From Actinospica acidithermotolerans (lineage in GTDB: Bacteria > Actinomycetota > Actinomycetes > Streptomycetales > Catenulisporaceae), in contig NZ_JAGSOH010000062.1 in NCBI RefSeq assembly GCF_018139625.1, positions 1 through 42,961 on the forward strand: a stretch of 42,961 bases of DNA, read 5' to 3'. Below, in pieces: positions 11,638-19,458 of the stretch. Both the position numbers and the translations under genes were made by a program. Each line of letters starts with the position of its first letter. Within the stretch, counting starts at the first letter, position 1. The notes below the pieces were generated by a model that searched no databases, had not been told where the DNA came from, and worked only from the letters and a program-made list of their open reading frames with translations.

Positions 11638-11713
<76 letters not shown>

Positions 11714-16362: not shown

Positions 16363-16448
16363 TACGAAGGCAAATATAAGACCGGCGGATGCTGGCGCGG
16401 CGCTTCTCACAGATGGTATTGCCCGGACGGAGTGCCCGAAACGGGTGG

Positions 16449-16454
16449 TATCCT
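16449..16454 (+). promoter_or_regulatory. -10 box of the leuS leader transcript
   Basis: TATCCT ends 6 nt before the leader-peptide ATG at 16461, the spacing expected if transcription starts at the A of the ATG. No strong -35 is visible. TGGTAT occurs at 16414 and again at 16446, 32 bp apart, and may be a regulator half-site or chance. Confidence 0.5.
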
Positions 16455-16460
16455 GCTGCC

Positions 16461-16499
16461 ATGCGAGCTGTACGCCTGCTCCTTAGCCGGCCGCGCTGA
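16461..16499 (+). CDS. leucine-rich attenuator leader peptide upstream of leuS
   Basis: A 12-residue reading frame, [12 protein letters not shown], with three consecutive leucine codons (CTG CTC CTT, 16476-16484) and a TGA at 16497. It sits directly before a strong hairpin and an intrinsic terminator and 95 bp upstream of leuS. Slow decoding of the Leu codons when charged tRNA-Leu is scarce would stall the ribosome and alter leader folding. The ATG seems leaderless. That the peptide is translated is inferred from its composition and position; it is too short for homology. Confidence 0.72.
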
Positions 16500-16546
16500 C
16501 GGAAGTCCTCTCAGCGTGGCGACCCCTCCTGTGCGAGGGGTTTTTT
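16490..16546 (+). terminator. attenuator: leader hairpin plus intrinsic terminator of leuS
   Basis: First hairpin: GCCGCGCTGA (16490-16499, containing the leader stop codon) pairs with TCAGCGTGGC (16511-16520), 10 bp with one G-U and an 11-nt loop. Only one base later the terminator begins: ACCCCTC (16522-16528), loop CTGTGC, GAGGGGT (16535-16541), then six T (16541-16546). The first stem's 5' arm would be covered by a ribosome finishing the leader. I do not see a simple long antiterminator, so the exact switch is open. Confidence 0.75.
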
Positions 16547-16593
16547 CATTGGCGGGCGGCGTCCGCAGACCTACTCGACGTGAGGGAAGAGCG

Positions 16594-19458
<2,865 letters not shown>

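Follow-up and report, generated by a model that had tools for sequence, protein, structure and literature searches.

A predicted leucine-codon attenuator upstream of leuS in Actinospica acidithermotolerans: range, folding and a possible mode of action

The leucyl-tRNA synthetase gene (leuS) of Actinospica acidithermotolerans is preceded by a short leader that very probably acts as a ribosome-mediated transcription attenuator and would permit transcription of leuS when charged tRNA-Leu runs low. This is a real, conserved element already published for Streptomyces, another instance of the leuS attenuator described there and hence no new element. The explanation that we favor as a whole, with a probability of roughly 0.45, adds a mechanism drawn from computed folds, in which a hairpin termed P1, or a ribosome drawn in by it, would block the terminator (T). 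More tentative still is the broader reading, that an antiterminator-free attenuator of this kind extends across the class, with P1 serving as a distance switch between stall codons and T. No description of the class-wide range or of the non-classical anatomy was found in the literature searched, subscription journals lying outside its scope. A comparative study of 2010 on attenuation in aminoacyl-tRNA genes may already record a wider range.

The leuS leader in the window

The window, by which we mean the whole stretch of DNA analysed (42,961 nt), carries leuS on the plus strand at 16594-19458 (TIGR00396, 881.6 bits against a cut-off of 548.4), and all parts of the leader lie on the same strand. 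A -10-like box, TATCCT (16449-16454), ends 6 nt before the ATG of a 12-residue leader frame (16461-16499), which reads ATG CGA GCT GTA CGC CTG CTC CTT AGC CGG CCG CGC TGA and closes at the UGA at 16497-16499; leaders of the same kind occur in relatives. Its three successive Leu codons, CTG CTC CTT (16476-16484), are the putative control codons, the last of them being CTT in most relatives as well. The base right after this run (16485) is A in 117 of 140 leaders of the set described below, for which no reason was found. When the RNA from 16461 to 16550 is folded (z -2.7, an equally good fold being reached by 1 of 200 shuffles), P1 spans 16490-16520, starts 5 nt past the last Leu codon and has a base helix (GCCGCGCUGA/UCAGCGUGGC) of ten pairs, 16490-16499 with 16511-16520, with the UGA inside its 5′ arm. 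The intrinsic terminator T (16521-16546) adjoins P1 on its 3′ side with no gap and consists of a hairpin of eight pairs (16521-16542) and a U-run (16541-16546); the terminator scan reported it as two overlapping sites, compared with a shuffle average of 0.2, and 53 nt separate its last G from the leuS ATG at 16594. These folds and counts bear out the first-pass annotation, which had described a 12-residue frame with three Leu codons in a row, ending inside a 10-bp hairpin that abuts a terminator 53 bp before leuS.

The same annotation had seen no T-box, and indeed Rfam returned only a tRNA on the whole window, and on 16380-16610 only two matches, both far under the gathering scores. A T-box or other Rfam family was thus rejected, and the leader matches no Rfam 15 family at threshold. 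The tRNA gene lies at 11641-11713 on the minus strand (RF00005). Regarding the leader start, a TAnnnT box stands 6-7 nt 5′ of the start codon in 139 of 142 leaders, which supports the earlier suggestion that the leader itself is leaderless, and the homologue in S. lividans was assigned a leaderless start from RNA-seq (PMC8079986, 2021). In the mechanical reading the leuS frame stays open through the leader region (16432-16593) up to a GTG at 16432, so that automatic annotation could set the leuS start too far upstream.

Conservation, range and codon choice

By itself the Leu run means nothing, given that the pattern ATG-N(6-30)-CTS CTS CTT occurs 72 times in the genome and a reversed control pattern 84 times. 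The element is significant because it is conserved, with a leader present at 77 of 80 loci that were chosen by LeuS similarity and with helices that covary. The three loci where the leader is missing belong to Nocardia (two) and Ilumatobacter (one). The comparison among relatives proposed along with the first description, for a shared Leu run, hairpin and terminator, has therefore turned out positive, and its central proposal of a leucine-codon attenuator before leuS is well supported by sequence and conservation.

A covariance model built from 43 leaders matched all 197 genomes searched in the window's order (E 0.001) and 162 of 394 genomes of the class (E 0.01), representing 68 of 138 genera; by our own count from the listing, the window's order contributes 40 of these 162 genomes, and both searches used stricter filters, by which weak elements may be missed. 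LeuS is encoded just downstream at 58 of 60 fetched class loci, the two others being L162, which has no LeuS match, and L167, where the sequence ends too early. The 56 downstream LeuS proteins with alignments of at least 250 residues fall into two lineages of 31 and 25 members, at least 57% identical within each lineage and 33-46% identical between them. One genome (G388) possesses two leuS genes of different lineages (L149 and L153, with 41.7% identity across 295 aa), and each of the two is preceded by an attenuator of its own.

As a control for ascertainment, 20 class genomes without a model match were searched for LeuS, and the 420 nt upstream of leuS were read in 19 of them (G203 being the exception). 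Scanning these 19 regions by script gave no short ORF in which three Leu codons follow one another, and hence no leader of another spacing there. By eye, the upstream regions of three leuS loci (L214, L216 and L230, in G212, G218 and G223) contain possible remnants of decayed leaders, in the form of a -10 box plus start, a terminator-like hairpin, or a PR-stop end that has no Leu run. In another class genome (G507), weak matches (L238, L242) correspond to a Leu leader with no evident terminator. A search of the phylum matched 13 of 149 genomes, 8 of which are from the window's class; among the five matches outside the class, L243 has LeuS downstream, L244-L246 are followed by an acetolactate-synthase ORF, and L247 looks like a chance match and was set aside.

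The geometry of the element was read from 142 leaders, comprising 82 (the window, four family members and the 77 of 80 LeuS-selected loci) and 60 taken from the class matches, one to several per family. The set includes duplicates, e.g., L102 and L190, which are the same element, and three doubtful members, namely L162 (probably a false match), L142 (cut by a contig end) and L169 (one in-register Leu codon); L162 and L169 were excluded wherever at least two Leu codons were required and otherwise kept, as was L142. At the 60 class loci it was the model match that set where the folded segment begins and stops; the folding itself is independent of the model. P1 and T are both present in the minimum-energy fold of all 142 leaders. 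The gap between them, measured from the outermost pairs with weak pairs counted too, is 0 nt in 110 leaders, 1 nt in 17 and 2 nt in 15, although this spacing is part of the model by which the 60 class leaders were found. P1 itself spans 24-69 nt. P1 begins 5 nt after the Leu run in 119 of the 142 leaders and 3-5 nt after it in 134, and the stop codon starts at position +7 of P1 in 114; elsewhere it ranges from 2 nt before P1 to 23 nt inside it (-3 in the doubtful L162), and in one leader none was found. At least four U within 8 nt past the last G-C pair of T are seen in 139 of 142 leaders.

On the aligned sequences P1 covaries. In the 73 matches aligned to the model, 72 of them distinct, pairing holds in 98.0% of cells, and changes on both sides are found in 11 of 16 pairs (60 cells), a count reached by none of 500 shuffles, this alignment being fitted to the structure. 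An earlier free alignment (A1) also had 98.0% paired cells, with double changes in two pairs, a count reached by 11 of 500 shuffles; A1 shows few double changes because most of its rows are Streptomyces. The base GCCGC/GCGGC is conserved in sequence as well as in pairing, and the apical part is free in both length and sequence. The 5′ part of the leader was considered as an alternative partner of P1 and dropped, since its length and sequence vary across the class.

Codon choice within the Leu run is likewise conserved. CUU, a codon served by the GAG isoacceptor, is the last Leu codon in 49 of the 58 class leaders that have two or more such codons, and in every one of the 82 leaders of the window's order and the LeuS-selected loci. 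Downstream, CUU accounts for 14 of the 1479 Leu codons in those portions of 57 leuS genes that were fetched, and for 0 of 70 in leuS of the window. Codons sensitive to charging are expected in such sensors, and rare codons have been described in the E. coli leu leader (PMC1183508). Pairing of the Leu run with the Shine-Dalgarno region of leuS was rejected as a cause of the CUU bias, for its mean duplex energy was -6.76, no better than the -6.88 obtained when the regions were permuted among loci, in a test that is rough because the automatic leuS start is plainly wrong at some loci, the window included; moreover, CTC would pair better.

How P1 may act on the terminator

In the mechanism that we favor, transcription would start at the leader ATG, as the -10 box suggests. 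When leucyl-tRNA is ample, the ribosome would reach the stop codon and mask the 5′ arm of P1, and T would close and end transcription. When leucyl-tRNA is short, the ribosome would stall within the Leu run, which mostly ends in the rare CUU, and P1, starting 5 nt further, would fold. The folded P1, or the ribosome drawn near by it, would then keep the last base pairs of T open, and RNA polymerase would read through into leuS. P1 would thus be a distance switch, not an antiterminator; it shares no bases with T in the computed folds, which leaves no competition by pairing. That P1 would fold on stalling but not at the stop codon is what the size of the ribosome suggests. If this is true, the folding of P1 presses the stalled ribosome, or P1 itself, against T, and the covering of P1 by the terminating ribosome frees T.

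Published distances for ribosomes near terminators allow a comparison. According to passages of PMC4824070, the ribosome occupies some 10 nt of RNA beyond the A site, and by estimate 10-15 nt of free RNA between the A site and the terminator hairpin are needed for full closure. When Li and colleagues shortened the distance between a stop codon and a terminator from 28 to 5 bp, termination dropped from about 90% to less than 10%, and full termination in their E. coli system was seen only when more than 27 nt lay between stop codon and terminator (PMC4824070). That closure of the last pairs would be the committing step accords with the relevant passages of PMC6624301. A folded P1 would loop out its 24-69 nt, and the path then left to T measures 5-10 nt (median 8) when counted from the last Leu codon, in all 140 leaders with a stop and two or more Leu codons, and 11-18 nt when counted from the first Leu codon (11-15 in 117 of the 140). 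A ribosome at the stop codon would stand 19-71 nt from T in the same 140 leaders, 24 nt in the window. The 10-15 nt limit thus separates the path from the last Leu codon and that from the stop codon. The agreement is suggestive, not tight. The stop-to-T distance is at most 27 nt in 39 of the 140 leaders, the window among them. If about 10 nt are covered past the A site, a ribosome at the last Leu codon would also lie over roughly 5 nt at the start of P1; were the first Leu codon in the A site, P1 would be free, but the path to T would then be inside or above the limit.

Among the other explanations, the one that survives best, though we consider it unlikely, treats P1 as a pause hairpin at which RNA polymerase waits for the ribosome, so that the decision would be kinetic and P1 itself would not block T. 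Pause hairpins are an established part of classical attenuator leaders, and P1, placed directly before T, would have its base about 10-12 nt behind a polymerase inside T, judging from the fold. Such a role alone would not account for why P1 so regularly starts 5 nt after the Leu run, and it does not say what blocks T on starvation.

Considerably less probable is classical attenuation, in which P1, or P1 extended into T, would take up terminator bases as a true antiterminator. The 2005 paper does name the Streptomyces leuS leaders classical (PMC1262725), and in some Streptomyces leaders inspection by eye shows room for about two additional weak pairs between P1 and the first bases of T. Against it stand the coexistence of P1 and T in every minimum-energy fold and a capture test, in which the upstream pairing of T's 5′ arm was computed by folding with the ribosome stalled and T's 3′ arm not yet made. 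Capture was at most 0.056 in all 142 leuS leaders, whereas six E. coli leaders known as classical (trpL, leuL, thrL, hisL, pheM and ilvL), with terminators placed by hand, gave 0.67-0.90. From 12 genomes of the window's order nine trp leaders were obtained, and these gave 0.70-0.80, again with T placed by hand (the automatic finder located it in one of the nine), which indicates that the test works on GC-rich actinobacterial DNA. Folding began at the first base of P1 in the leuS leaders and 5 nt past the control codons in the controls, which is the same point in 119 of 142 leaders. A classical antiterminator is thus not seen, in support of the first-pass annotation, which had noticed none, and as far as computed folding can tell the leuS leader fails the defining feature of the classical design. 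A point against the mechanism that we favor is that masking of P1's 5′ arm leaves T's 5′ arm half captured in 16 of the 142 leaders, including the window (0.54), which would weaken termination in the replete state.

About equally improbable is that P1 serves as the site of a regulatory protein, e.g., LeuS itself, with the leader peptide being secondary. The base sequence GCCGC/GCGGC is kept even where the stop codon precedes P1 (L158, L180, L181), as a protein site would have it; the free apex, the occurrence of the same element before two LeuS lineages that share 33-46% identity, and the Leu run with its CUU bias, which this idea leaves unexplained, speak against it. Slightly weaker again is the possibility that the terminator is unregulated and gives rise to a small RNA or peptide, constant read-through being what drives leuS, an idea favored by the negative ilvB codon mutants of S. 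coelicolor (cited in PMC1262725) and by the fact that regulation of this leader has been read from sequence alone, and opposed by the conserved choice of a rare codon, the near-constant spacing of Leu run and P1, and the presence of the element before both LeuS lineages. In that S. coelicolor ilvB leader, changes of the regulatory codons were without effect (cited in PMC1262725), and actinobacterial leaders can therefore look like attenuators yet not act so. Leucine control of the leuS leader through the distance switch is in this sense a prediction from sequence and folding.

Relation to known attenuators

The first description had treated such an element as unusual before a tRNA synthetase gene, but leuS attenuators have been in print since 2005, when they were predicted in S. 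avermitilis and S. coelicolor (Seliverstov 2005, PMC1262725). There the Streptomyces leuS leaders are described as classical, i.e., with antiterminator and terminator hairpins. A reannotation of 2021 added LeuL2 of S. lividans, a leaderless leader peptide followed by a hairpin and a U-stretch before leuS (PMC8079986), to which the leader peptide of the window is nearly identical. The window shares with LeuL2 the gene leuS, a Leu-rich leader, a hairpin and a U-run terminator directly before leuS, as well as the leaderless start, which in the window follows from the -10 box only. Two points differ, namely the mode, classical in the 2005 paper and with a terminator that is not captured in the pairing test here, and the range, which is three Streptomyces species in the relevant passages of the two papers together (PMC1262725, PMC8079986) and extends across the class here. 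The passages of PMC8914203 and PMC13236596 in which leuS was sought contain nothing on it, nor does PMC13289151 in its text under "upstream hairpin", the only term applied there.

With classical attenuators (E. coli trp, leu, thr, his, ilv and pheM, and Streptomyces trp) the leuS leader shares a short ORF with control codons, an intrinsic terminator between leader ORF and structural gene, and, as in E. coli leu (PMC1183508), rare codons. It differs in that its hairpins are adjacent and compatible and an antiterminator is not seen. In textbook attenuation the two hairpins share a strand, whereas the leuS leader keeps them apart, with near-constant spacing on both sides of P1. The proposed direct block by the ribosome resembles attenuation of the pyrBI type, where a ribosome near the terminator represses it (PMC4824070), with the difference that 19-71 nt lie between the stop codon of the leuS leader and T, and that the folding of P1 would bring the ribosome close. 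If the distance switch is true, it explains how actinobacterial leaders with no visible antiterminator can work, and the leader would also make a self-contained leucine sensor for use in Streptomyces engineering and a candidate for an Rfam family. If the switch is wrong, the locus remains a well-conserved leuS attenuator outside the Rfam 15 families at threshold.

Three of the phylum matches outside the class (L244-L246, family f51) carry a Val-Leu-Ile run, a P1-like hairpin and a T close behind, with capture of at most 0.001. The acetolactate-synthase ORF was recognized by NCBIfam after L244, as a fragment below the whole-protein cut-off, and by eye after L245 and L246. These ilvB leaders of another actinobacterial class seem to be built like the leuS leader, as a lead from three matches, not a survey, and together with them the distance switch, if true, could be a second general design of amino-acid attenuators.

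The LEU element found before leuA in Actinobacteria shares with the leuS leader an MR..LLLLS leader peptide and the sequence CTTAGC. For this element a pseudoknot and pairing with the Shine-Dalgarno box of leuA have been proposed (PMC1262725), and the leuA leader of S. lividans is described in a passage of PMC8079986 as having no typical terminator, unlike the leuS leader. The leuS model weakly matches such leaders in two genomes (G198 and G452), at L240 (1501-1640, leader MRAELLLLSCRGEASDAI), which precedes a 2-isopropylmalate synthase gene, and at L241. The presence of CTTAGC and MR..LLLLS in both leaders hints at a common origin of the leuS leader and the LEU element.
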